From the IMG/VR virus record IMGVR_UViG_3300033149_004284, positions 22,288 through 86,287 of that record: DNA of 64,000 nt; one strand, given 5' to 3'. Origin of the DNA: a virus. The stretch's first letter is position 1. Every line of letters starts with the position of its first letter. Shown here in pieces: positions 28,122-51,808 of this stretch. The translations under genes were made by a program, and so were the position numbers. The notes beneath the pieces were generated by a model. That model saw only the letters and a program-made list of their open reading frames with translations, did no database searches and was not told where the DNA came from.

Positions 28122-28193
28122 TTGTTGCGAATAGACTGATGGCGCAGGGGGCTCTGCTAAGTTGTGATAAGCTGGTCTAAGGAGATATCCATT

Positions 28194-29624
28194 ATGCCGA
28201 TTTTAGGGCGAATTGCAAAGAGACGACTGGTTGAGGCAGCGGTTCCTGTTGACGATACGGCTTCCGATACCTCTCGATGGCGCCGATTGACCGAGAAGGC
28301 CCCCAGGAACCTTTCTGACTACGACCACAAGCGAATGTTAGATATCGCCTTGTATCTCTATCGCTTCAATCCATTAGCCCATCGAGGCGTTGAGATCATG
28401 CGAGATTTCGTAGTGGGCAGTGGCATTCGTATTGAGGCCAAGGACAAATCCATCCAGTCAGTCATAGATAGGTTCTGGAACAATCCCGTTCATAAGATGG
28501 ATCGCCTGCTGGCCAGGATAGCCTTCGAGCTCAGTCTCTATGGGGAATTCATATCTCCCGCACTGGTAAACAGGCATAACGGGGATGTCGAGCTGAGTTA
28601 TATTTCCCCCCTCCAGGTCAAGGATGTCACTCTCAATCGAGGAAACCTTCTCCTGTTTGATTCAGTCGAGATCATGCCCACTGACATCTCTACCGAATCA
28701 TCGAAGCTCAAGGTCATCAACCTAGAGACAGATGTTGAGGCCCACCTCGATCCTGAGGACCCAAACTCGCCCTCCACCTATGGCTATCGAACTGGAGACT
28801 GTTTCTACTTCTCGGTGAACCGAGTAGGGGATGCCAGCCGTGGCCTGAGCGATCTCCTGGCTGTTGCCGATTTCGTAGACAGCCTCGACCAACTTATCTT
28901 CAATTCATTGGAACGCATGACCCACGAGACAGGCTGGCTCTGGGATATCGAGATGCAGGGGGCCTCAAATGAGCAATGCCAGCAGAAAGTCGCGGAGTTA
29001 GAGGCCGCTCCTCCCCGACCGGGCTCCTTCCTAGTCCACAACGAATGGGTCAAGTGGAACCCCATGAAGATCGGTCTGGAAGCCGAGAACGTCACTGACG
29101 AGTCTCTTCTCATTCGGAACTATGCCCTGGGTGGCATGGGAGTTCCCGTTCACTTCTTCAGTGAACCGCAAGGAGCAGGTCGTGCTGTCGCTGAGTCCAT
29201 GGCTGCTCCAGCCTATCAATCTCTGGAGTCTCGCCAGTCTGAAGTTGAGGGCTTTGTTCGGGAGATTCTGGACTTCGTCATAGACCAGAAACTCGTTCGG
29301 AAGATGCTAGACAGCAACTTGGATCGAAGCTATGATGTGATCATGCCAAAGATTTCCCTCCGCAATCTCCAGCGTACAGGAGGGGCCATGAACAGGACGG
29401 CGCAGGCTCTCAAGACCGCCCAAGACGAAGGTTGGATCGATAGCGAGCAAGGAAAGAAAGTCTTTGTGGCCATGCTGGAGCAACTTGGGCTGGGTGTAGA
29501 CCTCACTCCTAGCCAAGAGTTGCCAGGTGTCGCTTCTAGCCAAAGGCTACCGTCTGATGTAGGTTTTAGCCAGGCAGATGTAGGTGTCGCTTCTAGCCAG
29601 GAACTGCCCAAGGAGCTGCGCTGA
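28194..29624 (+). CDS. Portal protein
   Basis: 476 aa from the ATG at 28194 (AAGGAGAT). Order after terminase, size, and features such as RFNPLAHRGVEIMRDFVVG, LYGEFISPALVN, DCFYFSVNRVGDASRGLSDL and the long C-terminal helix region fit siphophage portal proteins, which form the dodecameric DNA gate and head vertex. The last 45 residues are an unusual Ser-Gln repeat tail (VASSQELP-type, three to four units), encoded by near-identical DNA repeats (GGTGTCGCTTCTAGCCA at about 29528 and 29582). The stop overlaps the next start (TGATG). Confidence 0.85.
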   Translation: MPILGRIAKRRLVEAAVPVDDTASDTSRWRRLTEKAPRNLSDYDHKRMLDIALYLYRFNPLAHRGVEIMRDFVVGSGIRIEAKDKSIQSVIDRFWNNPVHKMDRLLARIAFELSLYGEFISPALVNRHNGDVELSYISPLQVKDVTLNRGNLLLFDSVEIMPTDISTESSKLKVINLETDVEAHLDPEDPNSPSTYGYRTGDCFYFSVNRVGDASRGLSDLLAVADFVDSLDQLIFNSLERMTHETGWLWDIEMQGASNEQCQQKVAELEAAPPRPGSFLVHNEWVKWNPMKIGLEAENVTDESLLIRNYALGGMGVPVHFFSEPQGAGRAVAESMAAPAYQSLESRQSEVEGFVREILDFVIDQKLVRKMLDSNLDRSYDVIMPKISLRNLQRTGGAMNRTAQALKTAQDEGWIDSEQGKKVFVAMLEQLGLGVDLTPSQELPGVASSQRLPSDVGFSQADVGVASSQELPKELR

Positions 29625-33024: not shown

Positions 33025-33050
33025 CCTTAGATACTTAGGGGTCCCCAACT

Positions 33051-33527
33051 ATGATTTTAGATGCAGGATCAGGCATGGCATCGAACCCAAGAGCCAACAT
33101 ACTCATGGACAAATATCTTCAAGGAGACAGTACCTCTCGTATAACGGGCACTCTTATGATTCGCAAAGGACAGACTATGATTTGTGGTGACCTTGAGGCC
33201 ATGCCATTTCTGGATAAGTCCTTCGACATTGTTATTTGCTCTCAGACGCTCGAACATGTTGATAATCCTGAGAAAGCCTGTGCTGAGTTGGTGCGGGTAG
33301 GAAGGAGTGGTTTCATAACTGCGCCAAACGAGACAGTAGAAAGGCGTCGATATGAGCGTCGCGAGAAGCTCTATCACAAGTGGCTTATCAAGCAACGGGG
33401 CACTCACCTCGACTTCTATCTCAGAAGTCTCGTTCCAAGCCTCCCGATGATGGAGCATCCTAGCCAGGGCGTGGATATGGCTTGGAAAGGGAGCTTCACT
33501 TGGTCAGTGTTCAGAGAATCGCCATGA
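33051..33527 (+). CDS. SAM-dependent methyltransferase (type 11)
   Basis: 158 aa. MILDAGSGMASNPRANILMD is motif I; FDIVICSQTLEHVDNPEKAC is the typical motif IV region of type 11 methylases, followed by RVGRSGFITAPNETVERR. Shorter than usual (about 200 aa), so the N-terminal lead helix is missing or minimal. Likely O- or C-methylates a sugar intermediate (inference from context). Confidence 0.75.
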   Translation: MILDAGSGMASNPRANILMDKYLQGDSTSRITGTLMIRKGQTMICGDLEAMPFLDKSFDIVICSQTLEHVDNPEKACAELVRVGRSGFITAPNETVERRRYERREKLYHKWLIKQRGTHLDFYLRSLVPSLPMMEHPSQGVDMAWKGSFTWSVFRESP

Positions 33528-34516: not shown

Positions 34517-35186
34517 ACAATACCGTAGGGACTTCGCCACGTACATGAGCCTTCCTGGAGCTGAGAGGTGTAGACTCCAAATGTATCCTCGTCTTGAGGA
34601 TAAGACCGCATCAACTCCCCTGGATGCCTATTACTTTCGACAAGATACCTGGGCGTTCAAGCGGATAGTAGACCTCAAGCCTAGCAGCATAGTAGATGTA
34701 GGATCGACTGCGCTCCTCGTGGGAATTCTTGCCCAGATGTTTCCTACAACGAGTATCGATATAAGGCCCATTCCAGTATCTCTTCCTGGATTAACATGTA
34801 GGCAAGGCTCGATCACTAATCTCCCCTTCAAAGACGCCTCAGTTGAGCTCCTGAGCAGCCTATGTGTGATAGAGCATATAGGTCTAGGTCGATACGGCGA
34901 CAAGCTCGATCCGCTCGGTAGCATCAAAGCCTGCAAGGAGATCTCGAGGGTGCTCAAGCCTGGTGGACATTTCATAATGAGCACTCAAGTGAGTCATACC
35001 CCTGCCCTCTGCTTCAATGCGCACCGAATCTTCACGCAGGCCCAAGTTCTGGATATGTTGCCAGCCTTCTCGGTAACGGATGAGGCGTTCTTCTTCCCTC
35101 GGCCTGGCAATGCAGAAGACATAGAGGCACTCACGGGTTTCAGGTTCTGCTTCTGGTGCGTAGACTTGGTTAAGGAGTCAGCATGA
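34503..35186 (+). CDS. SAM-dependent methyltransferase (DUF268-like), GTG start
   Basis: 227 aa. SIVDVGSTALLVGILAQMFP is motif I; CRQGSITNLPFKDASVELLS and SLCVIEHIGLGRYGDKLDPL are typical of DUF268-type sugar-pathway methylases, then EISRVLKPGGHFIMSTQV. The GTG at 34503 overlaps the previous gene by 14 bases and ends in ATGA overlap with the next gene. Role in sugar methylation is inferred. Confidence 0.78.
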   Translation: MTAVEQYRRDFATYMSLPGAERCRLQMYPRLEDKTASTPLDAYYFRQDTWAFKRIVDLKPSSIVDVGSTALLVGILAQMFPTTSIDIRPIPVSLPGLTCRQGSITNLPFKDASVELLSSLCVIEHIGLGRYGDKLDPLGSIKACKEISRVLKPGGHFIMSTQVSHTPALCFNAHRIFTQAQVLDMLPAFSVTDEAFFFPRPGNAEDIEALTGFRFCFWCVDLVKESA

Positions 35187-35986
35187 CGCTCTCGGTTGTA
35201 ACTCCTAGCTACATTAACAACCAGCAACGAGCTGATTGGGCCAGAGACTCTCTGGCTTCCCTCAGGGAAACTATCGGCGACGGCTACTTACATGTTGTGG
35301 TGCTTGACAAATCCCTTGAATGGAATATTATTGCTCAGGCAATCTATAACCAGCCTAATGTAATGCTCATGCAGCGTCCCAAGCCTCTTGGCAATACTTC
35401 AGCTTTGCTAAAGGCCGTGAAGGAATCTCGCAAGTTGGGAGCAGATCTCTGTTTTGTCCATATGGACGATAACATCTATGTCCCCGAATTCGGACCTCTT
35501 CTCAGATATGCCCAGGACGCTTTCAGCAACGATAGGGAGTTGCAAGAAGTGCTCTTTGTTGGCTACCCGATCCTTATAAAGAGGCATAGCAAACCACTTC
35601 TTGGCAATCGCACAGGCCTAACTATCGAGGAGAATCAAGTCTCTTTCGATACCATACAGTTGCACCCTACTCGCTGTACGGATTATACTCTCTGGTGGTC
35701 TTATTTTCATGACCGAATGGTGGACGGGCGATTTTGGGCAGTTGTCATGTGGATGGCTCTCTACCGAGCTGAGTTCTTGGAGAGTGTCCTTACACTTGCC
35801 CCTACGGGCCGGACGCTTGGTCAGGTTGAATCTTACTACAGAAACAGAAGCAACTGGGAGAGACTATCCCATCGCTTTCCAGGAAAGCTCGGTTACATAA
35901 ACATGCAGTTCGGCGGTTTGGAGATGCACCATCATAGTCAGGAATGGTGTGAGATGATCCGTTTTCCTAATACGCCTGTGAGGTGA
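35183..35986 (+). CDS. Glycosyltransferase-like protein (GT-A)
   Basis: 267 aa. LSVVTPSYINNQQRADWARD at the N-terminus and CFVHMDDNIYVPEFGPLLRY (D-D-N in the metal position) point to a GT-A glycosyltransferase, though divergent from classical GT2. RPKPLGNTSALLKAVKESRK separates them. C-terminal part is aromatic and unrecognised. ATGA overlap with the previous gene. Confidence 0.7.
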   Translation: MTLSVVTPSYINNQQRADWARDSLASLRETIGDGYLHVVVLDKSLEWNIIAQAIYNQPNVMLMQRPKPLGNTSALLKAVKESRKLGADLCFVHMDDNIYVPEFGPLLRYAQDAFSNDRELQEVLFVGYPILIKRHSKPLLGNRTGLTIEENQVSFDTIQLHPTRCTDYTLWWSYFHDRMVDGRFWAVVMWMALYRAEFLESVLTLAPTGRTLGQVESYYRNRSNWERLSHRFPGKLGYINMQFGGLEMHHHSQEWCEMIRFPNTPVR

Positions 35987-36022
35987 GACATATAGGAGAA
36001 GACTTACCTGTGAGGTGAAGGA

Positions 36023-36661
36023 ATGACTTACAGAGAGAATCCAGAACTAGGTCAGGACATGGTTAAGTTTGCCTTTCATCGTTGGCAGCAAGGAGAATAT
36101 CTCTTAGAGCCTCCTCAGCGTCAAATCTACGAGAATATTGCGGTCAGAGCGAAAGGCAAGACGGTCTGTGATATAGGCTCTGGAGCGGGACTGGGAACTA
36201 CTATCCTAGCACAAAGGGCTCAGTCAGTTATTGGCATCGAGAAGGTTGCGTCTTCCGTCAGGTTCTCTAGGAAATGTCATCCCCTAACAAATGTGCAGTT
36301 TCTGAATGAGGATATAGGGAAGTGCTCTCTTTCTGACAACAGTTTCGATGTAGTGGTGGCGGTTGAGGTGATAGAGCATATCGCAAACTACCAGGCAGCA
36401 CTGGATCAGATGGCTCGAATTCTGAAAGAGTCTGGAACCCTATACATCTCGTCTCCTAACAGGAATCAAGATATTAGAGGAGGAGCGTCAGGCGCAGGCC
36501 CGCCAAGGAACAAGTATCATGTTCGAGAGTGGACAGCCGAGGAGTTTCGGCATATTCTTCTCTCGCGCTTCAGTCAGGTTAGGCTTTCTGACTATACCCT
36601 TGACCCTTGCCTAGACTCCTGTACGCGAGTCTCGCCAGTTATCGCGATCTGTCGAATATGA
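36023..36661 (+). CDS. SAM-dependent methyltransferase (type 11)
   Basis: 212 aa. TVCDIGSGAGLGTTILAQRA (motif I), VIGIEKV, NVQFLNEDIGKCSLSDNSFD, VVVAVEVIEHIANYQAALDQ and ILKESGTLYISSPNRNQ are all canonical. A short direct repeat CTGTGAGGTGA flanks the 36-base gap before the gene. Ends in an ATGA overlap with the next glycosyltransferase. Confidence 0.85.
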   Translation: MTYRENPELGQDMVKFAFHRWQQGEYLLEPPQRQIYENIAVRAKGKTVCDIGSGAGLGTTILAQRAQSVIGIEKVASSVRFSRKCHPLTNVQFLNEDIGKCSLSDNSFDVVVAVEVIEHIANYQAALDQMARILKESGTLYISSPNRNQDIRGGASGAGPPRNKYHVREWTAEEFRHILLSRFSQVRLSDYTLDPCLDSCTRVSPVIAICRI

Positions 36662-37326
36662 GAACTCTGTGGATCGTTATTCCAGCAAAAGATGAGGCTG
36701 CTACTATTGCAGACCTAGTTGCCGAAGCCGCCCACTACGGAACGGTGTTAGTAGTTACCAGTGGGCCTTCAGACGATACTGGCCCAAGAGCTGCCAGCGC
36801 GGGAGCCCAGGTAATCTACAACGGCCAGAGCATTGCAGGAAAGATAGTCACTGGCTGGCAGAGAGCCCTCGACAACAATGCGACACGAGTCATAGTCATG
36901 GATGCAGGCGGATCGCATAGGCCATCAGATATCCCCCGTCTCCTGGCAGCAGAGGCTGACATCGTAATAGGCAGTCGGTTTGTGGCTGGAGGCCAATATC
37001 ATGGCAGATCGTGGCGCAGGGTATGCAGTCAAGTCATGGCTCTGCTCTGCAACCTAGCCCAACCAGGTAAACAGGTCCATGACTGGTCTAGCGGCTTCAG
37101 GTGTTATTCGGTAGAAGCAATTGGGCAGCTACTAGCCGTCCATTATAAATCTGATATGCACGCTTGGCAAATCGAGGTGCTAGGCTGGGCTAGGCGCTTG
37201 CACCTTTCAGTTGAGGAAGTCCCTATACAGTATACTGCTGGGCACTCGTCTCTCTCCTGGGATGGGGCTCTCAGGGCTCTCAATATATTGTTAGACATCT
37301 TGCTCCGCAGGTGGGTAGTCGGATGA
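36658..37326 (+). CDS. Dolichol-phosphate-mannose synthase-like GT2
   Basis: 222 aa from the ATG at 36658. LWIVIPAKDEAATIADLVAE, VLVVTSGPSDDTGPRAASAG, RVIVMDAGGSHRPSDIPRLL (DAGG metal site) and IVIGSRFVAGG match DPM1-like enzymes that attach a sugar to a polyprenyl phosphate. HDWSSGFRCYSVEAI follows. No C-terminal membrane segments are present, as in soluble DPM1. In this island it could prime a lipid-linked sugar. Confidence 0.84.
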   Translation: MRTLWIVIPAKDEAATIADLVAEAAHYGTVLVVTSGPSDDTGPRAASAGAQVIYNGQSIAGKIVTGWQRALDNNATRVIVMDAGGSHRPSDIPRLLAAEADIVIGSRFVAGGQYHGRSWRRVCSQVMALLCNLAQPGKQVHDWSSGFRCYSVEAIGQLLAVHYKSDMHAWQIEVLGWARRLHLSVEEVPIQYTAGHSSLSWDGALRALNILLDILLRRWVVG

Positions 37327-38396
37327 TATTCTACCTTGATACATACATTACTGACGAGCCTCTCCATCCTGCGTTTGTTTGGCCAAACAGGGAGATCAGG
37401 AACTCCTGTCCCCAGTATAAGATGCCACGGAGAATAGATATCACAAAGTACACGCTTGCGAGTTATAAGATGATTCCGTGGACACATGTTGTCATCGCAT
37501 ACGATGTTGCTGATAAGGATGATGAAAGCACGTTCCTGGACTTTGTGCAAGAAGTTTTCCCAGACGCAGATGTTAGTCGGCCTCGCTCCTCTAACCAGAA
37601 GACGTACAGGGCAAGAGTGGAGCAAGTTTGCAGTTTTGAGGATGACTTCATCTTTTATGCACCTAACAACGATCATCCCCTCATAGCAAGCAATCTCAAT
37701 CACCTGCCCAAGTTACTCAAAAAGGCTTCAAGGTTCTCACAAAACTACCCATTTGTCTCCGTTGTCTACTCGCACTTCAGTGAGTTCGTCAACGCGCCTG
37801 TCGTTGGGAGTCCTTTCTACAGACAGTTCTCTAGCGACTCACGCATAGTAGAAGACGACGAGATTGCTACGAGCTTTGTGAGATTCAATGGCGACAACTC
37901 TTCTATCCAGATCGTCAATAGGAATCTCCTGCAACACTGGTTTTGCTCACATGATCTCGGTGATGCCAGAATCATCAGAGCAGAAGATGTTCGCAGGTTT
38001 CTTCCAACTCCTAACCAGTTGATGATAGTGCCCAAGAAGGAGCTCTGTGCGCACTTTGACGGCTACTCGCATACAACTGGTATCACTAAGATCAGTCCTG
38101 ACCAGATTCCTCCTCTATTCATTCCAACAGGGTTCTTCGACAGCTCGATTCGGATCGCCTACGGATATCCAGAATACCGAGATGGCTGGGTAAACATAAA
38201 CCCTTCTGCGAGGGATTTCAGTTTCCGCGACCGAAAGACGGGCACAGATCTGAAAATTGGTCTTCAGGACATACCTCTTTTCTGGAAGAGCAGAATCGCA
38301 GAAATAGACATCAATGTGAATGCCGACCTCGAGCGAATTAAGGAGGGCAGAGAGAAATACTTTGAGACAGTTCGTAACCCCTGGAGGAAAGCCTAG
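37323..38396 (+). CDS. Putative glycosyltransferase, unclassified, 357 aa
   Basis: Start at 37323 by ATGA overlap. It has IFYLDTYITDEPLHPAFVWP, WTHVVIAYDVADKDDESTFL and CSFEDDFIFYAPNNDHPLIA; the ED-D-F segment could be an acidic metal site as in GT-A enzymes. A later FVRFNGDNSSIQIVNRNLL is also typical of sugar transferases. I do not recognise the family, and assignment relies mainly on neighbours. Confidence 0.55.
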   Translation: MIFYLDTYITDEPLHPAFVWPNREIRNSCPQYKMPRRIDITKYTLASYKMIPWTHVVIAYDVADKDDESTFLDFVQEVFPDADVSRPRSSNQKTYRARVEQVCSFEDDFIFYAPNNDHPLIASNLNHLPKLLKKASRFSQNYPFVSVVYSHFSEFVNAPVVGSPFYRQFSSDSRIVEDDEIATSFVRFNGDNSSIQIVNRNLLQHWFCSHDLGDARIIRAEDVRRFLPTPNQLMIVPKKELCAHFDGYSHTTGITKISPDQIPPLFIPTGFFDSSIRIAYGYPEYRDGWVNINPSARDFSFRDRKTGTDLKIGLQDIPLFWKSRIAEIDINVNADLERIKEGREKYFETVRNPWRKA

Positions 38397-38971
38397 TGAT
38401 CAAGTTGCATATAGGCTGTGGCCCCAGAGTGCTAAAGGGATGGATAAATATCGATCTCAAGTTCACTCCTTACCAGGCGTACCTGAAATACTACACTGAC
38501 AAGTACTACCCAGAGTCCGCTAGGGGCGACAAGTCAGATTTTCTTGCACTAGATGTGTCTAGGCAGCCTTTGCCCTTTCCTGACAATTCGGTAGATGTCG
38601 TCTTCCATGAGGACTTCCTTGAGCACCTGAACCAGCGTAGCCAAGTTCTCTTCCTAGCTGATTCTCTCCGAGTCTTGAAGCCAGACTCCATTCATCGAAT
38701 TGATACGCCTAACCTGTTAGCATCGATGCGCGATCACTCTAATTTCTCCCTTGGCTTTCAGGGTGTCTATGTCCATGAGTGGGATAAGTCCAAGCATCTC
38801 AATGTATTGACCCCTAGCTCGCTTGAAGAGATGGCTCTTATGGTTGGATATTCAACAGTAGTCTTCACAGGTAGAAACCAAAGTGCGTCGCCTCTGATTC
38901 CGCCTGAGTATCGCCCTGATCCAAGAGATCGGCCCGAGAACGGAAACATCTTTGCAGATTTGGTTGCTTAG
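38396..38971 (+). CDS. SAM-dependent methyltransferase, GTG start
   Basis: 191 aa. KLHIGCGPRVLKGWINIDLK is the motif I form seen in sugar-pathway methylases (IGCG...GWxNxD). LPFPDNSVDVVFHEDFLEHL and SLRVLKPDSIHRIDTPNLLA complete the core. The GTG shares its first base with the upstream stop (TAGTG). Confidence 0.8.
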   Translation: MIKLHIGCGPRVLKGWINIDLKFTPYQAYLKYYTDKYYPESARGDKSDFLALDVSRQPLPFPDNSVDVVFHEDFLEHLNQRSQVLFLADSLRVLKPDSIHRIDTPNLLASMRDHSNFSLGFQGVYVHEWDKSKHLNVLTPSSLEEMALMVGYSTVVFTGRNQSASPLIPPEYRPDPRDRPENGNIFADLVA

Positions 38972-38981
38972 GAGTAGCGCC

Positions 38982-39860
38982 TTGAGGATATTTGTTCTTC
39001 CTGTGTCGTCTCAGTTTCAACCTCCTCCCATGAAGATTCTCTATCCTCCTCACAACAAGCGAGACTACGGCATTGAGCAAGACTTCGCTCAGCATCTCAC
39101 AGAGCCTTCTAGTGACTGGACGATCGCAGAGTCTTCTGACGTTGCTGATTGGCATTACCTTCCTATCTACTGGACACGTTACCATGTGACACATAACTAT
39201 GCCAAGACTGGCCTAGAAGCACTTCAGCGTGAAGTTGCCCGAAGAATCATTGACGACAAAAGGACCTTTACAATTTGCCAGTATGATGATGGGCCTTTGG
39301 TAGACCTTGGTAGAACTGTGCAGTTTCTAGGGTCTCGCAAAGGGGAAGAAGGCATCGACGTCCCTCTTCTTTCCTATCCTCATAAGCTCCCTGCAGTTGA
39401 TCCCCCTAAACAGTGGTTAGCGTCTTTTGCAGGGAGACTCCGAACGCACGAGGTTCGCGCAGACATGCAGCGTGTTCTGGGGCCTCGCCAGGACATTGAC
39501 ATTCAGGACACACGCAAAACCAGTAGATTCTTTGTAGACTTGATCCTTCGGTCGTATGTTTCCCTCTGTCCCAGGGGATGGGGTGGCTCGTCTTTTAGGT
39601 TTTATGAATCTATGCAACTGGGAGTAGTGCCCCTTCTCATTGGCAGCATAGACACCCGCCCCTTCAAACGTTTCCTGAACTGGAGTATAATGAGTCTCTA
39701 TGCTCGCACGGCCGAGGAAGCAAATGTGTCCCTCGACTCCCACACTCTGACAGAATTGCTAGAGATGGGGCGATGTGCCAAGAAAGCCTGGCATCAAGAT
39801 CTATCGTTTGGGCACTGGCACAAGTATGTGTTTCAGGAATTGGAGGCTCTATGGCATTAA
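38982..39860 (+). CDS. Exostosin-family (GT47-like) glycosyltransferase, TTG start
   Basis: 292 aa. I choose the TTG at 38982 because AGGAG (38970-38974) is seven bases upstream and the product then begins MRIFVLPVSS; an ATG at 39030 and another TTG at 38952 are alternatives. YVSLCPRGWGGSSFRFYESM then QLGVVPLLI matches the exostosin signature LCPRG...S.R..E....GCIPV. Exostosin-like enzymes polymerise or cap glycans. Unusual in phages. Confidence 0.78.
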   Translation: MRIFVLPVSSQFQPPPMKILYPPHNKRDYGIEQDFAQHLTEPSSDWTIAESSDVADWHYLPIYWTRYHVTHNYAKTGLEALQREVARRIIDDKRTFTICQYDDGPLVDLGRTVQFLGSRKGEEGIDVPLLSYPHKLPAVDPPKQWLASFAGRLRTHEVRADMQRVLGPRQDIDIQDTRKTSRFFVDLILRSYVSLCPRGWGGSSFRFYESMQLGVVPLLIGSIDTRPFKRFLNWSIMSLYARTAEEANVSLDSHTLTELLEMGRCAKKAWHQDLSFGHWHKYVFQELEALWH

Positions 39861-41305
39861 AGCACCATCAGCACTCTCTACAGGCCGAGGCGGTATGGGG
39901 GAAAGCCTACGGCGTGTTTGATCGAATTGTTCAGTTGAGAGGTTTCAGGACTGGCGTCGAGGTTGGCGTTGCTTTTGGAGGGCACATAGAAGCACTTCTC
40001 AACATCCCCACTATTGAGAAGGTCTATGGAGTTGATCCCTATCAGCAAACAGGAACTAGCAGCTCCTTGGGCCTCTCGCAGTCTGAGATGGATACCCTCT
40101 ATCTCTTCGTTCTGAACAGACTTGCCCCGTTTGGCGATCGTTACCAGCCTGTACGAAAAAGCTCGGTAGAGGCATCGTCTATCATCCCGCAGGAGATTGA
40201 TTTCGTCTACATAGACGCTGACCATTCCTACCAGGAAGTTATGGCGGATCTCTGTGCTTGGTTTCCCAAAGTACGCGAAGGCGGGATAATTGGCGGCCAT
40301 GACTATTCTCATCCTGACTTGCCAGGAGTTAAGAAAGCCGTGGATAGATTCTTCAGTCGGTTTGCTCAGCGCGTTCACTCACTAGGCGAATATGTCTGGT
40401 GGATAGAGAAGAAGATGCCCAGCATCAGCTTCGTATTGCCTGCATACAACTGCGCTGAGTTCGTCGAGGAGTCTGTGAAGTCTATTCAGAAGGGGAACTT
40501 TGAAGATGGCGACGAGCTCATCATTGTTGACGATGGCTCATCTGACAATACCCTGATGATTTTGCAGAGACTGGCCGCGTACTATCCCTCAATAAGGCTT
40601 CTCAAACACGACAGTAATAGGGGCGCATCAGCAGCCAGGAATACAGCGATAGCCAGTGCCAAGAACTCCCTACTCTTCAACCTAGACTCAGATAATATCC
40701 TAGTGCCAGGCAGCATCCCCAAACTCAAAACATATTTGATTAGCTCCAATGCTGATATAGCAGTGTTCGAGGAGACGCGTTTCTTTAGAAACGGAACTGG
40801 CCAGATAACACACAGCTGGAAGTATGGCCCAGGTCTGTTGACTCTATCCGACTGCTTGGCTGGCCAAATAACTCCTGGGGCTAGTGGGAACTATATGTTC
40901 ACTAAGGAGTCCTGGGCCAAAGCTGAAGGTTACCCTGAGTTCGCAAAGACCTATGAAACCTGGGGATTCGCCTTCAGGCAGCTAGCCACAGGCTCCAAAA
41001 TGATGGCAATGCCCGACTCTTTCTATCTCCATAGGTATGGCCATTCGTCACTCTGGGTGCGAGAAGGAGGAAATCGGAACGCTTCTCGGAAAACTCTAAA
41101 GATGATTCTGCCCTTTCTTGGCCTGCTTGACTACAAGGACGTTGAATACATAATGAGCCACAAGGAGACCTGGCTTACTAACTTATCTCAGCACCCAATA
41201 CGAGTCAAGGGGAGCGCTCCTGGGAATTCGGGCAGCATCAAACTCCAGAGCCCTCCACTTGACTATATGGAGCTTTTGTGTCAGAATATAGACGAGGAGA
41301 CATAA
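39851..41305 (+). CDS. Fusion of SAM methyltransferase and GT2 glycosyltransferase
   Basis: 484 aa from the ATG at 39851 (GGAGG; overlaps the upstream stop). Residues 1-185 are a Methyltransf_24-type methylase: GVEVGVAFGGHIEALL (35-50), FVYIDADHSYQEVMADLCAW (119-138) and GGIIGGHDYSHPDLPGVKKA. Residues 191-470 are a GT2 enzyme: SISFVLPAYNCAEFVEESVK, LIIVDDGSSDNT (223-234) and LLFNLDSDN. Fusion of the two activities implies sequential methylation and glycosylation on the same product. Confidence 0.86.
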   Translation: MALKHHQHSLQAEAVWGKAYGVFDRIVQLRGFRTGVEVGVAFGGHIEALLNIPTIEKVYGVDPYQQTGTSSSLGLSQSEMDTLYLFVLNRLAPFGDRYQPVRKSSVEASSIIPQEIDFVYIDADHSYQEVMADLCAWFPKVREGGIIGGHDYSHPDLPGVKKAVDRFFSRFAQRVHSLGEYVWWIEKKMPSISFVLPAYNCAEFVEESVKSIQKGNFEDGDELIIVDDGSSDNTLMILQRLAAYYPSIRLLKHDSNRGASAARNTAIASAKNSLLFNLDSDNILVPGSIPKLKTYLISSNADIAVFEETRFFRNGTGQITHSWKYGPGLLTLSDCLAGQITPGASGNYMFTKESWAKAEGYPEFAKTYETWGFAFRQLATGSKMMAMPDSFYLHRYGHSSLWVREGGNRNASRKTLKMILPFLGLLDYKDVEYIMSHKETWLTNLSQHPIRVKGSAPGNSGSIKLQSPPLDYMELLCQNIDEET

Positions 41306-41903: not shown

Positions 41904-42233
41904 ATGAGGTACTGCCCCATGTGCGACATCGCTTTGGGCTCACCTGAAGCCCACAAGACCGAATGGTTCTATCATTCAAGGGCAGTTACTATCGTTGAAG
42001 ACCTTGATCCCAAGGGCTATGTCCTAAGGCTCTTGGGCGTACCTCGCAAACATTTCGACTGTGAGGCTACAGGGGAGCTTATAGCAGCGATCCGCCAACA
42101 GACCATTGAGATAGCCTTAGGTGTAGCGCGGGCAATATGTCTGGAGCGAGGGCTAGCAATTGCCCAGATCGATACTGAGCATCATTCATTCAGAGATCAC
42201 TGGCATCTCCAGGTCTGTCTGAGTTTGAGGTGA
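41904..42233 (+). CDS. HIT-superfamily-like protein, 109 aa
   Basis: CPMCD near the N-terminus, YVLRLLGVPRKHFDCEATGE in the middle and HHSFRDHWHLQVCLSLR at the end. H-x-H-x-Q in the last motif is the pattern of the galactose-1-phosphate uridylyltransferase/Ap4A phosphorylase branch of the HIT superfamily, and the CxxC could bind zinc as in GalT. About half the usual size. A nucleotide-sugar or dinucleotide hydrolase role fits the surrounding glycan genes. GAGGAGGGAAT precedes the ATG. Confidence 0.6.
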   Translation: MRYCPMCDIALGSPEAHKTEWFYHSRAVTIVEDLDPKGYVLRLLGVPRKHFDCEATGELIAAIRQQTIEIALGVARAICLERGLAIAQIDTEHHSFRDHWHLQVCLSLR

Positions 42234-42239
42234 AAACCT

Positions 42240-45200
42240 ATGTCTGAGCTTCTGATTCGCAAGGTCGGCAACATCTGCTTTGTGCTGGACGAGAAGGGCA
42301 AAGATGTCTCAGGTGACTATGCAGACAGCCTTAACCAGTACAGAGATCTCGGGTTGTCCTCATTCTCCCTGTCAGCGCTGGGCTATGAGAATTCTCTCTA
42401 TCCTACTGACTGCCTGGAACTATCAGGGGAGAGCCTGGCTGAGCTCTCCCATCAGGAACGGGTAGACTTGTTCCTCACGGCTCTTCCCCAAGACCAGGAT
42501 ATCTCCTTCCGGCAATCGAAGCAAGTAGAGCTATTCAAACCCTTCACTCCGCTGAAGGCCCGCACTGGCTATGGTCTCTATGAGTTCAATAACAAACAAG
42601 ACCTCTGGGAGATGTGGGCCAAGGAGCGCATAGAGGCCAAGCGACCGATTGCTGTTCAGGCCAAGTTTGACGGTATCCGGCTTATCGTATTCAGGAAGGG
42701 CGACAGAGTTCAGATGCTCACCGAGGATAAGAAACGAGACCGTGCTTCTATTCTCCCTGAAGTCGTAGCAGAGATTAAATCTCTGCCAGGCGACTCCTGC
42801 ATACTGGATGTGGAAGCTGTCATTTGGCAGGAGAATCAGCCCATTCCTCGTCGTGAGATGATAAAGATGGTTGTGGGCAAAACACCTCTCAGGGGTGAGG
42901 ATATCCACATTAATGTCCACGATTGTCTGCTAGTAGATGGTAAGCCTCTTAACACTGAGCCCTACTCGGTGCGATTGGCAGCTCTTGACGAACTTCTCCC
43001 TAAGGATAAGAAGTTTCTCAGAAAGGCTCAAACTTGGGTAGCTAAGACTAAAAGCGAGTTCCTGTCTGCCCTCGACAAGGCATCTGCTTATCCTGGCTCA
43101 GAAGGAGCTATGGTCAAAACCTTGGATAGCGACTATCCTATTCGGGGTCGTACCCGAGAAGAGACTGCTGACTGGGGAAAGTTAAAGTTGGCGGTGGAGC
43201 TGCATTGCAAAGTCATAGGGCGTACTCGCAAGCCTAATCCCTGGCCTCCTGACGAACGCCCCAAACGCAATCTCCAGGGTGATGAGGCCCTTAAAGCCTT
43301 TCGTAAGTTGCAGAAAGGCTCCAAGACTTTCTACTATCGCTGTGCCCTTCGGGACGGTAAGAAGCTCATCCCTATCGACTCTGAGCACAAGCTGACTCCT
43401 GGAAACCTCTCCCTCAAGTGGGACGCCGAACACGAGGGCGGAGTCTGGAAAGGCACTGACGACCCTGAAATCTGGGAGATGGCTAAGGGTTTTGAGAACA
43501 GGCCCCGAGGCGACTGGGCTTATGGCAATACCTACGCCGTTAAGTACGACCCTCCGCCGAAACTGGGCGATATCATCACAGTGGCTCCCATCCTGATGCG
43601 AGCCTGGAAGGACAACAGCACTACTCACTACTCCTGGACTTTTCCTAGATGCAAAGAGTTTGATCCTACCCGTACACAGCCTGACACCGTCCAGGACGCA
43701 GAGCGCATCGTGGCAAAGTCTCCCAAGTCCATCCGCAAGCATGTTCGTCCTGGGCCTTTTGGGCATCCTGGAGGCAAAACCGTCTTGCTGAAGCATATCC
43801 TGCCTAGGATACCTGCCCATGAGACTTATTGTGAGCCTTATGTCGGATCAGGGGCTGTATTCTTCGCCAAGCCCAAAGCCCACAAGTCAGTTCTAGGGGA
43901 TACAGACCCTGAGATAATAGCAGCCCTCCGCTTTGTTCGGGACGCCTCAGCAGAGGATATCGAATGGCTGCGCAAGCAGAACTGGCAGCCGTCCAAGGGT
44001 CGCTGGCAGTTCCTCAAGGATCAAAAGCCAGTCCGCAAACGAGAGCGCTTCTATCGCTTTAGATACCTGGATATCAACTCCTGGGCTCACTCGCCTGCTA
44101 AAGGCTTCGCCCGTAGCAACCAGCCCGCATCCATGAAAGCCGAAATGGATAAGATCAGGGCAGGCCAGCAGAAACTACGTGGCAATGTCTCTATCGTCCA
44201 GCAAGACGCCTTCAAGACTATGCGGGAGAATGACTCACTGTCTACTTTCCACTACATTGATCCGCCCTATTGGGGCAGTGGTGACCTTCAGCCCTATGGT
44301 GGTAAGGCCCCTGACCCCGAAGCCCTTGTTAAGTTCCTCAAAGGACTACGCGGCAAGTGGCTACTATCCATGGCAGACAAACCTAGAACGCGCAAGGCCT
44401 TCAAGGATTTCAATATCAAGTCAGTCTCTCGTCAAATGACTTATACAGTTTACTCGCGTAAGACTAAGGCTGGTCAGCCAACACGCACTCGCCGTGAGCT
44501 CCTAATTGCTAACTACGACTTCGCCGATCTCCACGAAGCCGTAGTTCCTCCTGGCGAAGGCGAGAAACCCACCCACAAGAAGCAGCGTGCTGAGGCTGAG
44601 CGCAAGTTCGGCGATCCCTACATGGTTCACCAACCTCCCGACAAAACCTTTCCCTTTGTCTATATGCACCATGAGCGGGGTATCTGGACTCAGGCTGAGC
44701 TTGTGGGCCTACGCGCCGCACTCAAGAACGCCAGACGATATCCTGATCTTATTCCTGACATCTGGAAACGTTACAAGCCTGTCGTCCTAACGACTAGCCT
44801 AGAGTCTCTCAGGCGAGACGCAGAGGCAACCTCCGAGAAGCGGGGTGATGTCACTGCTGCTGTCCACAAGCACCTTGACGAGAAACCTCCCAAAGTTCTT
44901 CCTTCCAACAACAAGATACTCAATGTGGGCAATGTCCATGGTGACTGGCGAATGCGCTCTCCAGAGGGCGAGTTCCTCATTGGGTGGACCCTCTCTACCC
45001 CGTCGGTTGTACTCCAGTTTGCCGACGGCAAAACCGTCTATCCTATCAGGGACAGATTCCTTGAGAACAAGGAGGGCGACAAGATAGTAGCCTACCGCAA
45101 GTGTCCTAATCCACTCTGTGACGAGGAGCGCTATTTACGCCTAGTTGAATCCAATCCTCATGAGAGCGTGTCCCAGATGTTCGCCAGCGAGGAGGGCGAA

Positions 45201-46271
45201 ATAATTCTCGGTTCCCAACGTCCGTTAGCTATGCGATTGGCAGAATCAGGTGCAATCCAACTCTTGGCAGGCTTGCCAGAGAATCTTACTCAGGAATCGG
45301 TTCAGCCGATGGTATGGCTCACTATCGTCAATCCTAAGCGTCTCGTCTATCAGGTCTCAGCTGGAGGCGTAGGTGCAACGGCGAAGACTGGCGCTAGGTT
45401 CATCTTTCGGGATGCTGGGAAAGTGGCATATGGTTGCCAAAAGTCGGATTTCCATGAGGGGTTTTTCTGGTTCAACCGCCACAAAAATCTCTCAGGCCGC
45501 TGGGGAGTCCAGGAGCTAGCAGGTAGGCCTGAGTACACAAAGCTCGGAACTGAGGGTAACTGGTGGATGGTCAATCATGTCGTCAAAGACCCTCGGCCCT
45601 ACATCCTCCGCTACTCCCGTGATGCTAAGGAGCGGCAGGCTAAAAAGGAACATCTCAAACACATCATCTGGAACGCCGATGTCCTCAAAGTTCTCAAGGC
45701 TGACCCTCATGGCCGCAAATGGCTAGGGCTAACCTCCCAGAAGAAACTAGACGAGAAGTGGGCTGAGTTCTCTGCTGGCAATGGAGAGTTTCGCCTTCGC
45801 AAATCGCTCAGCTTCAGCTCGAAGCTCTTTCACTCACCGGCCGCCGAAAAGCAACTGTTTGTCTATGGGGCAATTCTCATCCCAGGCAAAACTGACGCTC
45901 AGGGCCACCATGTTACAGCAATAGAGGTCGCTAAGGCCATTCGCACAATGGGGGACATTGGTTTCGATATTGAGCATTCTGAGAAAGTCTCTCCCAACGA
46001 TCTTAGGCTTACCCAAATCTTCCAAGCCCCAGTTGGGTTCAAGATTGGCAGCCAGCATTTCAAGAAAGGCACTGCTATTGCCGAGATCGCTGTTCTGTCG
46101 CCCGCGATTCGCAAGCGTGTTCTCTCAGGTGAGATCAGGGGCTTCTCGATCTCCGGGAAAGGGGTTATGGACAACTCGGCAGGCCTGTACGACATTAAGA
46201 TTCAGAAGATCTCCCTTGTTGGGAGCCCTGCTATCAAAGAGGATTTCATAATAAAGGTTGAGGACGTGTAA
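42240..46271 (+). CDS. Multidomain fusion: ATP ligase, Dam methylase, LigD-like phosphoesterase, XkdF-like protease
   Basis: 1343 aa, one continuous frame. (1) About 100-480: ATP-dependent ligase with KFDGIR (adenylated Lys142), LDVEAVIW (189-196), EGAMVKTLD (288-296), DWGKLKLAV (311-319) and an OB-like tail. (2) About 500-762: D12-class adenine methylase, FGHPGGKTVLLKHI (507-520), YCEPYVGSGAVFF (530-542) and DPPY (674-677). (3) About 885-1125: LigD 3'-phosphoesterase-like core, H900-G-D-W-R904 with GWTLSTP, and later LSGRWGVQEL plus WWMVNHV. (4) About 1203-1343: XkdF-like prohead protease, LFVYGAILIPGKTDAQGH, possible His1246 and Ser1303 in GFSISG. The gene sits just before the capsid gene, where a maturation protease is expected. 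No polymerase domain as in LigD is present. Packaging with the head is inferred. Confidence 0.85.
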   Translation: MSELLIRKVGNICFVLDEKGKDVSGDYADSLNQYRDLGLSSFSLSALGYENSLYPTDCLELSGESLAELSHQERVDLFLTALPQDQDISFRQSKQVELFKPFTPLKARTGYGLYEFNNKQDLWEMWAKERIEAKRPIAVQAKFDGIRLIVFRKGDRVQMLTEDKKRDRASILPEVVAEIKSLPGDSCILDVEAVIWQENQPIPRREMIKMVVGKTPLRGEDIHINVHDCLLVDGKPLNTEPYSVRLAALDELLPKDKKFLRKAQTWVAKTKSEFLSALDKASAYPGSEGAMVKTLDSDYPIRGRTREETADWGKLKLAVELHCKVIGRTRKPNPWPPDERPKRNLQGDEALKAFRKLQKGSKTFYYRCALRDGKKLIPIDSEHKLTPGNLSLKWDAEHEGGVWKGTDDPEIWEMAKGFENRPRGDWAYGNTYAVKYDPPPKLGDIITVAPILMRAWKDNSTTHYSWTFPRCKEFDPTRTQPDTVQDAERIVAKSPKSIRKHVRPGPFGHPGGKTVLLKHILPRIPAHETYCEPYVGSGAVFFAKPKAHKSVLGDTDPEIIAALRFVRDASAEDIEWLRKQNWQPSKGRWQFLKDQKPVRKRERFYRFRYLDINSWAHSPAKGFARSNQPASMKAEMDKIRAGQQKLRGNVSIVQQDAFKTMRENDSLSTFHYIDPPYWGSGDLQPYGGKAPDPEALVKFLKGLRGKWLLSMADKPRTRKAFKDFNIKSVSRQMTYTVYSRKTKAGQPTRTRRELLIANYDFADLHEAVVPPGEGEKPTHKKQRAEAERKFGDPYMVHQPPDKTFPFVYMHHERGIWTQAELVGLRAALKNARRYPDLIPDIWKRYKPVVLTTSLESLRRDAEATSEKRGDVTAAVHKHLDEKPPKVLPSNNKILNVGNVHGDWRMRSPEGEFLIGWTLSTPSVVLQFADGKTVYPIRDRFLENKEGDKIVAYRKCPNPLCDEERYLRLVESNPHESVSQMFASEEGEIILGSQRPLAMRLAESGAIQLLAGLPENLTQESVQPMVWLTIVNPKRLVYQVSAGGVGATAKTGARFIFRDAGKVAYGCQKSDFHEGFFWFNRHKNLSGRWGVQELAGRPEYTKLGTEGNWWMVNHVVKDPRPYILRYSRDAKERQAKKEHLKHIIWNADVLKVLKADPHGRKWLGLTSQKKLDEKWAEFSAGNGEFRLRKSLSFSSKLFHSPAAEKQLFVYGAILIPGKTDAQGHHVTAIEVAKAIRTMGDIGFDIEHSEKVSPNDLRLTQIFQAPVGFKIGSQHFKKGTAIAEIAVLSPAIRKRVLSGEIRGFSISGKGVMDNSAGLYDIKIQKISLVGSPAIKEDFIIKVEDV

Positions 46272-46634: not shown

Positions 46635-49313
46635 ATGGGTTTCACATTAAAGGTGAAAGGTTGGATTGAGGACTTCGTGAAGGCGGCTGAGGCGTCCAAA
46701 GAGGAGATTCCCAAGGCGGCCCAGGGTAGCTTCACTCGCCTGAAACTACTCTCGGCCCAGAAGCCTGTCAAGGATGTGGAGTCTAGCCGCAACTCCGAGG
46801 GTCTGGAGAAGCTTCAGGCATTCCTGAAGAGTGTGAAGGGCAAAGCCAAGTTGGAGACTGTTGCCAAGAAAGCCATTGACAACCTGACCGAATACTTTGG
46901 GAAGGACTATGGGGCAAAAGGGGAGGTCGCAAAAGCTTCCACTTATGTCTGCCCAAAGTGCGGCTACAAGGGCAAGCCTGACAAAGACGGCAACTGTCCC
47001 AAGTGTGGCACTAAGATGAAGGTGGATTACGGGAAAGCCTACGGCGACTACGGCAAGACCAAGTATGAGGATTATGGCAAGACCGAAGTTGCCAAATCTG
47101 AGCCCCATCCCCACGGCAAGCATGTCGTCTATTGCCCTAAATGTGGCTATGAGGAGACAGTCGAGGCTGGCGTCAAGGCTAAGGACAAGAAGTGTCCCAA
47201 GTGCGGAACTCGGATGCGGGCTAGGGAAATAGGTGAGCGGCGCGAGGCTGTCCACTTCAGGACCCTAACTGGCCGACTTCTTGAAGCTGTTGAAGGCACA
47301 GAGGGTAGCCAGTGGGAAGTCACTCTCATCGAGGCAGGCGTCTCTGAGAATCGCACCAAGTACAGTCTCCCTGTTCTTGAAAAAGCGCTTCCCCTCTTCG
47401 ATGGTGCTAAGTGCTTCGCTGACCATTCAACTGCCTCTGAGCGTCGCGAGCGCCCTGGACGCTCTATCAGAGACATCGTAGGCTGGTTTGAAAGCCCGAA
47501 AGTTCTCGGCGACGGAGTCAAAGGAATTGGGGCTGTCTTCAACATCCTAGAATCAGAACGATGGTTTCGAGATAAAGTCGTAGAGGCCTGGGAGCGAGGC
47601 AAACGAGACCTCATTGGCTTCTCGATCAGCGCCATCGGCAGACAGAAACTGATTCGCGAGGAGGACAAACTCCTCAAGGAAGTCGTTTCGATTGACAAAG
47701 TACAATCTGTAGATGCTGTCACTGAGCCTGCAGCTGGTGGCAAATTCGTGAAAATGCTAGAAGGGAAGGAGGCAGAAGAAGTGAGCCAACTAGATATTCT
47801 GAACACCATCACACTGGAGAATCTGAGAGAGGTGAGGCCAGACTTGTTCCCTGAGCCTGCTTCTGAGCCAGAGCCTGATTTGGAGCCTACGCCTGAGCCA
47901 GAGACTGAACCATCTCCTGATCTTTCTCACCTCACTGAGGCGGTCAAAGAGATCGAGAGCCTAAAGGCTACCCTGGCTGAAATGCAGGATACGTCTCGGA
48001 AGACGGATCTCAAGGCGCAGCTTGACTCGGCGCTTCAGTCCAGCGGTCTTCCCAAGCCTGTCCAGGATAAACTTGGGCGACGCTTCTCTTCTCTCGAATT
48101 CACCTCGGAGACTCTCACTGAGGCGATTCGCGAGGAGAAGGAAGTCTTAGCCCAAATTCTGCCACCAGAGCGTCGTTACTTCCCATCAATCAAGATGGGC
48201 GAGAGCGAGCGGGACAAGATTGACAAGGCTATGGATGGTCTCCTGGAGGGCGAAGATATCGACGGGATTCCTCGCTTCAGGAATCTGCGTGAAGCCTACT
48301 CGATAGTCACTGGTACACCGATTCTGGATGTCAGAGCTCAGCATATCCTGAATGCGTCGTCAGCCTTTGACTCGTCAGTTGGTTTCTTGCGAGAGGAGAT
48401 ATCGACAAGCACTTGGACGAACGTCTTCGGAACCAGCATGACCAGGAGACTGCTTAAGGAATACCGCAAACCTGGCTATGATGACTGGAAGAAGATTTGC
48501 TCCAGCGTCGAGACTCTCGACAACATGAAGTCCCAGGAGCGAGTCCGCATAGGTGGCTATGTTGCCCTCAGCTCGGTTTCCGAGGGAAGCACCTACACAG
48601 AGCAGTCGTATGATCCTCCAAATGAGATGCAGAACTACACCCCGACCAAAAAGGGTAACTTGGAGAGTATCACACTGAAAGCTATCGCCAACGACGACCT
48701 TGGTGCTCTACGGCGAATTCCCAAGGCTATGGCCTTTGCAGCCAAGGTGGGTGTCTACAAGGCAGTTTTCGACGTTCTGACCACGAACGCTGCAATGAAC
48801 TATGATTCAGTGGCTCTGTTCAACGCGGCCAGTCACGGGAACTATGGGACAACTGCTCTTAGCTATGAAGAGCTCACAAGTGCCAAGAATGCTATGCTGG
48901 AGCAGATGGAGCCAGTAGGGTCTGGTGGAACTGAGCTCACCTATCTGGACGTGGAGCCCAAGTACTTGCTGGTTCCACTAGAGCTCCGAGGCACAGCCTG
49001 GGACCTCATCAATTCGCCAGTTAGGGCACTTGCCAGTTCCTTCAACGCAACTCAGCCCAACATGCACTATAAGACGCTTGAGCTGATTGTAGTGAGGCAC
49101 TGGACTGATTCTAACAACTGGTACTTGATCGCAGACCCTTCATTGATTGCAACCATCGAGGTTGGTTTCTATGGTTCTCAGGAGCCCGAAATCTTTACCG
49201 AGTTGGCCAATGCTGGGTCGAATTTCACTGCTGATAAGCTCCGCTACAAGATTCGTCATATCTATGGGGTAGCAGCTCTTGAGCATCGTGGAATGTACGC
49301 CGAGATCGTGTGA
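46635..49313 (+). CDS. Fusion of zinc ribbons, prohead protease and major capsid protein
   Basis: 892 aa. Residues 1-95 are helical. Two zinc ribbons follow: CPKCGYKGKPDKDGNCPKCG (106-125) and CPKCGYEETVEAGVKAKD then KCPKCG (167-191). Residues about 205-380 form an S78-like protease with His264 (CFADHS) and Ser330 (GFSISA). A Pro-Glu linker (407-429) and a scaffold-like coiled coil (430-510) come next. Residues about 540-892 form an HK97-fold major capsid domain of the Mu gpT-like type. The order protease-scaffold-capsid in one chain implies self-cleavage to release the capsid protein. Double zinc ribbons at the front are unusual. GGGAGGT precedes the ATG. Confidence 0.86.
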   Translation: MGFTLKVKGWIEDFVKAAEASKEEIPKAAQGSFTRLKLLSAQKPVKDVESSRNSEGLEKLQAFLKSVKGKAKLETVAKKAIDNLTEYFGKDYGAKGEVAKASTYVCPKCGYKGKPDKDGNCPKCGTKMKVDYGKAYGDYGKTKYEDYGKTEVAKSEPHPHGKHVVYCPKCGYEETVEAGVKAKDKKCPKCGTRMRAREIGERREAVHFRTLTGRLLEAVEGTEGSQWEVTLIEAGVSENRTKYSLPVLEKALPLFDGAKCFADHSTASERRERPGRSIRDIVGWFESPKVLGDGVKGIGAVFNILESERWFRDKVVEAWERGKRDLIGFSISAIGRQKLIREEDKLLKEVVSIDKVQSVDAVTEPAAGGKFVKMLEGKEAEEVSQLDILNTITLENLREVRPDLFPEPASEPEPDLEPTPEPETEPSPDLSHLTEAVKEIESLKATLAEMQDTSRKTDLKAQLDSALQSSGLPKPVQDKLGRRFSSLEFTSETLTEAIREEKEVLAQILPPERRYFPSIKMGESERDKIDKAMDGLLEGEDIDGIPRFRNLREAYSIVTGTPILDVRAQHILNASSAFDSSVGFLREEISTSTWTNVFGTSMTRRLLKEYRKPGYDDWKKICSSVETLDNMKSQERVRIGGYVALSSVSEGSTYTEQSYDPPNEMQNYTPTKKGNLESITLKAIANDDLGALRRIPKAMAFAAKVGVYKAVFDVLTTNAAMNYDSVALFNAASHGNYGTTALSYEELTSAKNAMLEQMEPVGSGGTELTYLDVEPKYLLVPLELRGTAWDLINSPVRALASSFNATQPNMHYKTLELIVVRHWTDSNNWYLIADPSLIATIEVGFYGSQEPEIFTELANAGSNFTADKLRYKIRHIYGVAALEHRGMYAEIV

Positions 49314-50644: not shown

Positions 50645-51808
50645 ATGGCCCGCTATGGGAGAGTTCTTCAGTCCAGACGTCAGCAACCTTTAAGGGTGAT
50701 AGCTCCTTGCTATGAACTAGCAGCTAGTGGCTATTATCGGGTTCTGCTACCGCTCAAGGTCTTGCTCGACAGGGGGGCTATCGAGGCAGTTTGGAAGGGG
50801 ATGTTACCCTGCAAGCCAGGGGAGAAGCCTGAGCGCGGCTCTCGACTTGCTAATTTGATGGCTCAACTCCTCAATTGGGCTAACGTCTACTTCCTAGAGA
50901 GAGAGGAACGAGAGAACCTTATTCCCATACTTGAGAAAGCCAAACGACTCGGCAAGGCTATCGTGATGGACATAGATGACCATGTAGTTGCCTTTCCTGA
51001 TATTCCTCAAAGGCAGGTATCGGATTTTTGGAAGGAGCGAGTGCCCTATTTCCTGAAGATCCTCCAGCAGGTTGATTTGTTGATTACCACTACCGACAGA
51101 CTAGCAAGGAGTTATAAGGAGTACCTGGGCGATGGTGCCGAGACAGTTAGTATTCCAAACTTCATCGATACGAGGCATCCTCGCTGGCAAGTTCAGCCTA
51201 GCGAAAAGACTGACGGGACAATCACTATTGGCTGGATGGGCGGCCCGACTCACATAGATGATCTGGAACTCCTCCGAGAGCCGCTCTCTATTATTCTGAA
51301 CCGATACCCCAAGGCTGTCTTCAAGTGTGTAGGGCTGATTCCAGAGTGGTTGGACAGTTTGCCTTCCGGCCAGGTCGTCAGGAGTGAGGGCTATTCTGGC
51401 CTTGCTGACTATCCAAAGCGCTTCGCAGATTTCGATATAGGACTTATCCCACTCACTGACAATGAGTTCAATCGGAAGGGTAAATCAGCGTTAAAGTATC
51501 TCGAATATTCGATGTTCGGAATTGCCTCAGTTGTCAGCAAAGTGCCCGCTTATTGGGGAGCGGTTAGCAGGAAGCGAGGCTTTCTAACGCCCAATACGAC
51601 CGAAGATTGGATCAAGTCCATAGAAACACTTATCACCAGGGAAGCCCTTCGCAAATCCCTGGGCAATGCGGCCAAAGACTATGTTCTCAAGCAGCGTTCT
51701 ATCGATGGCAACGCCTATCGTTGGGCTGCTGCCTTTGAGCAAGCTCGTCGAATCAGACGGAGCCGGAATCAAATCCTAGTGCCTGCACTAGAAGGAGTAG
51801 CAATATGA
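50645..51808 (+). CDS. GT-B glycosyltransferase inside the tail module
   Basis: 387 aa. LRVIAPCYELAASGYYRVLL, AIVMDIDDHVVAFPDI, ITIGWMGGPTHIDDLELLRE and ADFDIGLIPLTDNEFNRKGK then SALKYLEYSMFGIASVVSKV (the GT4-type donor motif K..KyLEYma.G.pvVaS) identify a family 4-like glycosyltransferase. It lies 9-20 kb from the main glycan island, immediately before the tail tube gene and overlapping its start (ATGA). This suggests that a structural protein could be its target. Confidence 0.83.
   Translation: MARYGRVLQSRRQQPLRVIAPCYELAASGYYRVLLPLKVLLDRGAIEAVWKGMLPCKPGEKPERGSRLANLMAQLLNWANVYFLEREERENLIPILEKAKRLGKAIVMDIDDHVVAFPDIPQRQVSDFWKERVPYFLKILQQVDLLITTTDRLARSYKEYLGDGAETVSIPNFIDTRHPRWQVQPSEKTDGTITIGWMGGPTHIDDLELLREPLSIILNRYPKAVFKCVGLIPEWLDSLPSGQVVRSEGYSGLADYPKRFADFDIGLIPLTDNEFNRKGKSALKYLEYSMFGIASVVSKVPAYWGAVSRKRGFLTPNTTEDWIKSIETLITREALRKSLGNAAKDYVLKQRSIDGNAYRWAAAFEQARRIRRSRNQILVPALEGVAI

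Follow-up and report, generated by a model that had tools for sequence, protein, structure and literature searches.

A predicted ligase, Dam-type methyltransferase, LigD-type phosphoesterase and head protease fusion encoded among the head genes of a tailed phage

Introduction

Polyvalent proteins are multidomain proteins encoded beside late genes, and some of them carry a C-terminal assemblin-like peptidase for which a role in virion assembly has been proposed (Iyer et al. 2017, PMC5512222). Precedents for packaging within this group are DarB and DdrB of P1 (PMC5512222). A different kind of multidomain enzyme is LigD of bacterial non-homologous end joining (NHEJ), the 3′-phosphoesterase (PE) of which requires His42, His48 and Asp50 at the metal site and His84 and Tyr88 at the phosphate site; Arg52 is also part of the phosphate site (PMC8656161). 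Here we describe a gene located at positions 42240-46271 of a 64,000-nucleotide window, meaning the whole stretch of DNA analyzed (bases 22288-86287 of an 86,287-bp contig in a genome bin that is presumed bacterial; IMG/VR record IMGVR_UViG_3300033149_004284). Its product is predicted to combine a DNA ligase, a Dam-type methyltransferase, a LigD-type PE and a head protease in one chain. Two terminase pieces together with portal, capsid, tail and tape-measure genes identify the contig as that of a tailed phage.

Domain composition and integrity of the chain

The open reading frame (ORF) 42240-46271 (+) starts with ATG, is preceded a short way upstream by GAGGTG and encodes 1343 amino acids in one intact frame. 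The chain can be divided as follows.

42240..42521, + strand: N-terminal ~94 residues, kept in the L002 ortholog under purifying selection; no family match
42522..43724, + strand: predicted ATP-dependent polynucleotide ligase, nucleotidyltransferase core plus the next ~170 residues read as OB-like (PF01068, phrog_114, TIGR02779)
43737..44525, + strand: predicted D12/Dam-type N6-adenine methyltransferase, residues 500-762 (PF02086, phrog_56, TIGR00571)
44589..45689, + strand: predicted LigD-type 3′-phosphoesterase, residues 784-1150 (PE hidden Markov model, hhalign, predicted structure)
45831..46268, + strand: predicted XkdF-type (S78_2) assemblin-like head protease, residues 1198-1343 (PF14550, phrog_3017)

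Ligase, methyltransferase and protease were matched directly and the PE only through a family profile. The Pfam matches for ligase, D12 and XkdF/S78_2 all exceed the curated cut-offs and PHROG agrees, which bears out the identities that an earlier note had given to these three domains by eye. The ligase match to PF01068 covers residues 134-316 (E 4e-23) and is accompanied by phrog_114 over residues 127-491 and by TIGR02779 from NCBIfam (2e-16). Its nucleotidyltransferase motifs, with the catalytic lysine K142 of KFDGIR, E192, EGAMVK at 288 and WGKLK at 312, place the domain among putative ATP-dependent DNA ligases; the ~170 residues that follow the core are read as an OB-like domain from the phrog_114 coverage and the motifs. 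In the methyltransferase, PF02086 matches residues 510-734 (E 4e-19), phrog_56 and TIGR00571 match with 1e-37 and 2e-17, and the motifs GHPGGK at 508, EPYVGSG at 532 and DPPY at 674 were found; motif I and DPPY are those expected of a D12/Dam adenine methyltransferase. The match of PF14550 to residues 1200-1308 (E 3e-9) scores 37.5 bits against a cut-off of 24, and phrog_3017, a head maturation protease, matches with 6e-10. The GFSISG motif begins at 1301, making Ser1303 its serine, His1246 is likely to be the protease histidine, and in both the window chain and L002 a C-terminal KISLVGSPAIKEDF strand completes the domain. This combination of profile, serine motif and complete strand points to an XkdF/S78_2 head protease.

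An ortholog of the whole chain was found at L002:5220-9743 on an independent viral contig (IMG/VR 3300029813_000617, 91,230 bp). It has 1507 amino acids and 69% identity to the 1343-residue chain, and its start codon, domain order and gene order are all as in the window. The two proteins are colinear throughout except for one insert of ~160 residues between methyltransferase and PE, which accounts for the extra length of the ortholog. This insert holds two similar W-C-V-x-W repeats. Synonymous sites are near saturation between the two genes (pS 0.70-0.80), and pN/pS is 0.25-0.32 in ligase, methyltransferase, PE and protease each; all four domains are therefore under purifying selection as protein. 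Ortholog and selection together exclude, for practical purposes, a frameshift, an assembly join or a pseudogene, and the reading of the gene as a single 1343-residue chain in the earlier note proved correct.

Identification of the phosphoesterase domain

Between methyltransferase and protease no Pfam or PHROG match was found across residues 760-1210. Direct searches of this middle segment against Pfam, NCBIfam, PHROG and PDB sequences gave no match, nor did tblastn against phages, and a direct PF13298 match was absent from the host bin, G001 and the L002 record. The LigD-type PE had been guessed in the earlier note from a short motif; family profile, hhalign and structure matches all agreed with that guess.

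A phage PE profile built without the window protein and the L002 ortholog gave the window protein a score of 58.6 bits; among 200 shuffled window chains the highest whole-sequence score was 2.9 bits. Comparison of the phage PE family with 12 LigD-PE sequences by hhalign gave 97.1% (E 4.9e-11) across the full length of the domain, while four unrelated modules used as controls gave at most 0.6%. For the additional PE-like copies present in relatives (PE2) the comparison with LigD-PE gave 98.3% (1e-14). The size of the family was important: an earlier hhalign run with just six family sequences had returned a probability of 4%, and the match became decisive with 44 sequences. Two relatives match curated LigD-phosphoesterase models directly, below cut-off (L076: TIGR02777 8e-8, PF13298 2e-6).

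Template-free structure models were compared with 350,542 PDB chains. For the window PE, modelled with a predicted local distance difference test score (pLDDT) of 66, the top two matches were the archaeal LigD-family PEs 3p4h and 3p43 (prob 0.90 and 0.95; the E-values, 0.09 and 0.16, are weak). A clearer result was obtained with the relative L057 (pLDDT 90): the top six matches were all LigD/NHEJ PEs with prob 1.0 and E from 1e-6 to 6e-5. A viral structure library gave no match. By sequence profile via the family and by predicted fold, residues ~784-1150 belong to the LigD 3′-phosphoesterase superfamily (PF13298 / TIGR02777).

The equivalents of His42, His48, Asp50 and Arg52 in the window protein are H811, H900, D902 and R904. 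The two histidines and the aspartate are found in 44/44 PE family sequences and the arginine in 43/44. The window protein has an insertion of ~80 residues between H811 and H900-x-D902-x-R904. Intein-like insertions within the PE, at or near the H-x-D motif, were observed in L044 (1-1916, - strand), L065 (1-2355, - strand) and probably L055.

Relatives of the fusion

Pattern scans from the window protein alone detected one ortholog and nothing more, and those from the ligase of ANMV-1, a virus of an uncultured archaeon, detected none. The conserved ANMV-1 ligase string GAQKPxFHEYF, used as a DNA pattern, located 41 viral loci and 6 in metagenome-assembled genomes (MAGs), whose products all belong to a single protein family. 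Scanning again with another motif added 19 new loci, all with the PE. Architectures were assigned with our own profiles for six modules, and the counts below refer to about 73 viral or MAG loci, most of which came from the two patterns.

Ligase and PE share one chain in 31 of these loci and in 14 more the ligase is encoded in the gene adjoining the PE, archaeal-virus-like loci being among those with a linked ligase; many of the loci that lack one are cut off upstream. The chain ends in an XkdF-type protease in 18 loci. Ligase, Dam, PE and protease occur all together in two other viruses, and the order of the modules varies:

window and L002: ligase, Dam, PE, protease
L057 (1784 aa): nucleotidyltransferase, Dam, Dam, ligase, PE, PE2, protease
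L047: Dam, nucleotidyltransferase, ligase, PE, PE2, protease
L034: Dam, PE, PE2, protease
L037, L066, L073, L085: ligase, PE, PE2, protease
L042: ligase, PE, protease

A search of 50,697 deposited phage records found the PE in ANMV-1 alone, where the protein is annotated merely as a ligase, and it was found in no plasmid searched. The window chain belongs to a broad family that occurs largely in uncultured viruses. Databases of isolate phages contain almost no trace of this family, and it supplies a named, alignable domain with which uncultured viruses can be annotated. The earlier note knew of no described fusion of this kind; none was found in the literature searched, but the fusion is not a one-off, as its modules recur across the loci above.

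Two further features of the relatives were observed. The ligase frame is broken at the same point (VYDCL | GDIHNRPYSE) in L012 (G001:C48) and L019, leaving two ORFs that are separated by other sequence, and is unsplit in L016-L018. The 1604-residue relative at L018:5562-10376 contains nucleotidyltransferase, ligase and PE after a long N-terminal extension which resembles, by eye, a caspase/gingipain-type peptidase with a PEGA segment.

Head-gene neighbourhood

The following structural genes of the same phage were recognized.

28164..29624, + strand: portal protein (phrog_10963 1e-34)
46635..49313, + strand: next gene after the fusion, an 892-residue fusion of a head-protease-like domain with the major capsid protein (PF25209 8e-36, phrog_15531, phrog_133, phrog_4523)

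The position beside a capsid gene, pointed out earlier, is thus real. The N-terminal region of the capsid gene product matches phrog_15531, a head maturation protease, at 219-509 (2e-22); hhalign against the S78_2 set gave no confirmation, and this assignment rests on PHROG 15531. The gene order of L052 is portal, fusion, short gene and major head protein, which puts the fusion where a head protease gene usually lies. In most protease-bearing relatives the polyprotein stops just past GFSIGG and the last strand, KEVSLVDRPA, opens the next gene, after which comes a virion structural gene. Such a split between the serine motif and the EVSLVDRPA strand was seen in L034, L037, L042, L047, L057, L058, L066, L069, L073 and L003.

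Other genes of the region were noted in passing. Between the portal and fusion genes lies a series of glycosyltransferase and methyltransferase genes (window 31074-41305), and a further glycosyltransferase lies amid head-tail genes at 50645-51808. The large terminase is present as two ORFs, 25178-26038 and 26574-27506 (phrog_38 positions 266-473 and 468-705), with a 162-residue ORF of no assigned function between them; an HNH/AP2 gene lies at 22094-22834. Upstream of the fusion a small ORF at 41904-42233 is HIT-like by eye and has no profile match. On the same contig, L010 3678-6407 is a 909-residue tail-like ORF with a Hint/intein-like segment.

Proposed function and its alternatives

These observations could be explained by a polyvalent phage protein which enters the prohead and is cut there, and whose healing, sealing and marking of phage DNA takes place either inside the head or soon after injection. 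We give this reading a probability of about 0.5; packaging, cleavage, catalysis, substrate and timing are all steps that we infer. The C-terminal prohead-protease-like domain would bring the chain into the head during assembly, and there it would be cut, probably by its own protease or by the capsid-fused one. The PE would clean 3′ ends and the ligase would seal nicks or ends, while the Dam-type domain would methylate adenines. These activities, directed jointly at the phage genome while it is still in the head or shortly after its injection, could seal or circularize it and mark it against restriction. Entry into the prohead with action at injection seems most likely from the analogy with polyvalent proteins and from the affiliation of the protease domain with the head. 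A pair of end-healing and sealing enzymes is supported by the recurrent pairing of PE with ligase; the linkage of both with the head protease is also recurrent, and the gene has its slot by the capsid gene.

Several findings weigh against this reading. The adjacent capsid protein seems to contain a protease domain of its own. The protease of the fusion may therefore target or process the chain that carries it instead of serving as the only head protease, and head maturation may not require it. Several relatives and ANMV-1 carry ligase and PE without protease, so packaging by way of the protease cannot be general. The L002 ortholog has DPPH in place of the methyltransferase DPPY. His84 and Tyr88, essential in Pseudomonas aeruginosa LigD, correspond by alignment to Gln1022 and Trp1026, and the family has E or Q at the former position (H in two sequences) and an invariant W at the latter. 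Since these residues are replaced, PE activity cannot be assumed, and the phage PE is best described as a divergent clade of the LigD-PE superfamily whose activity is uncertain. We know of no family member for which virion proteomics or an activity has been reported.

The substitutions of His84 and Tyr88, the ~80-residue insertion amid the catalytic residues of the window protein and the further degenerate PE-like repeats (PE2) of many relatives would also fit a PE-like domain that is catalytically dead and serves as a DNA-end-binding or structural module. We regard this as improbable: the equivalents of His42, His48 and Asp50 are invariant, and that of Arg52 nearly so, across 44 divergent sequences, and the intein-like insertions of L044 and L065 lie at or near the PE motif, which is the usual sign of an active site. 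Somewhat better placed, but still unlikely, is a late-expressed repair enzyme that is not injected but works inside the producing cell, on concatemeric DNA that is about to be packaged or is being packaged. Its targets would be nicks, 3′-blocked ends and adenine marks, and the protease would free the chain from the site of head assembly or would simply be the head protease sharing a gene. Location in a late head operon, the protease-free relatives and the annotation of the ANMV-1 protein as an ordinary ligase are consistent with such an enzyme. However, repeated fusion to an assemblin-like protease (18 loci) is hard to explain without virion localization, and ordinary phage ligases are encoded as stand-alone genes.

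A counter-defence effector injected with the DNA has less in its favour than late repair. It would re-seal breaks made by host nucleases or remove 3′ blocks or nucleotides, with the Dam domain blocking restriction; a role as conflict effectors has been proposed for polyvalent proteins as a class, and one of them, DarB, is a methylase-helicase with an anti-restriction function (PMC5512222). Nothing tested points to a specific defence target, though, and the mechanism overlaps with that of the preferred explanation. That the fusion is an artefact (frameshift, assembly join or chance motif) is a negligible prospect: no supporting point was found, and the independent L002 ortholog with the same fusion, purifying selection throughout the chain, the shuffle control and the structural match of the PE all argue against it.

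Returning to the packaged polyvalent protein, a broader version of it can be put forward tentatively, with less confidence than the reading for the window chain itself. The family may form a widespread, undescribed class of virus-carried end-healing and sealing enzymes, in which a Ku-free, LigD-related ligase and PE are built into the head protease of tailed bacterial viruses and protease-free relatives occur in archaeal viruses, each virion perhaps bringing its own DNA-repair and marking enzyme for the incoming genome. If the fusion is packaged, it would exemplify a phage that delivers repair of DNA ends along with its genome, and it poses a testable question: do tailed phages carry their own ligase and 3′-end healing into the cell?

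Comparison with known systems

Full-text literature searches, which left most subscription journals outside their reach, returned no description of the four-part fusion. Like LigD, the window chain unites an ATP ligase and a 3′-phosphoesterase, with homologous PE fold and metal ligands; unlike LigD, it has no polymerase domain (no Pfam match to a primase-type domain was found in the chain), has His84 and Tyr88 replaced, has a methyltransferase between ligase and PE, and has gained a head protease. The missing polymerase is not decisive because the number of LigD domains differs by species (PMC8656161). Describing ligase plus PE as two-thirds of LigD, as was done earlier, therefore applies to descent and anatomy and does not establish LigD chemistry, since the PE clade lacks His84 and Tyr88. 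Ku (PF02735) was not found in the host bin (85% complete), G001 or seven viral records, some of them fragments, and on this ground classical NHEJ was rejected as unsupported.

The ANMV-1 protein (AJP62006.1, 'ATP-dependent DNA ligase') resembles the window chain in joining a ligase to the same PE family, and differs in its length of 866 residues, its N-terminal nucleotidyltransferase, its second PE-like domain and the lack of Dam and protease. PHROG 13242 / 1530 and the G035 prophage share the fusion of a D12 methyltransferase to an XkdF protease but have neither ligase nor phosphoesterase. An alignment to the head-protease domain was also seen for PHROG 14859, which bears the label 'RNA ligase'; RNA ligase-protease fusions may therefore exist in known phages.

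The polyvalent proteins of phages and conjugative elements likewise combine many disparate enzymatic domains, DNA methylases included, lie among late virion genes and in some cases carry a C-terminal assemblin-like peptidase. Their peptidase hub is a zincin, whereas that of the window chain is of the XkdF type, and the main text of the polyvalent-protein paper (PMC5512222) has ligase solely as RNA ligase and leaves LigD and end joining unmentioned. The window protein nevertheless has the layout of a polyvalent protein, since a single gene among the virion genes encodes several enzymatic domains that are unrelated to one another, and its fusion ties bacterial break-repair chemistry to virion assembly.

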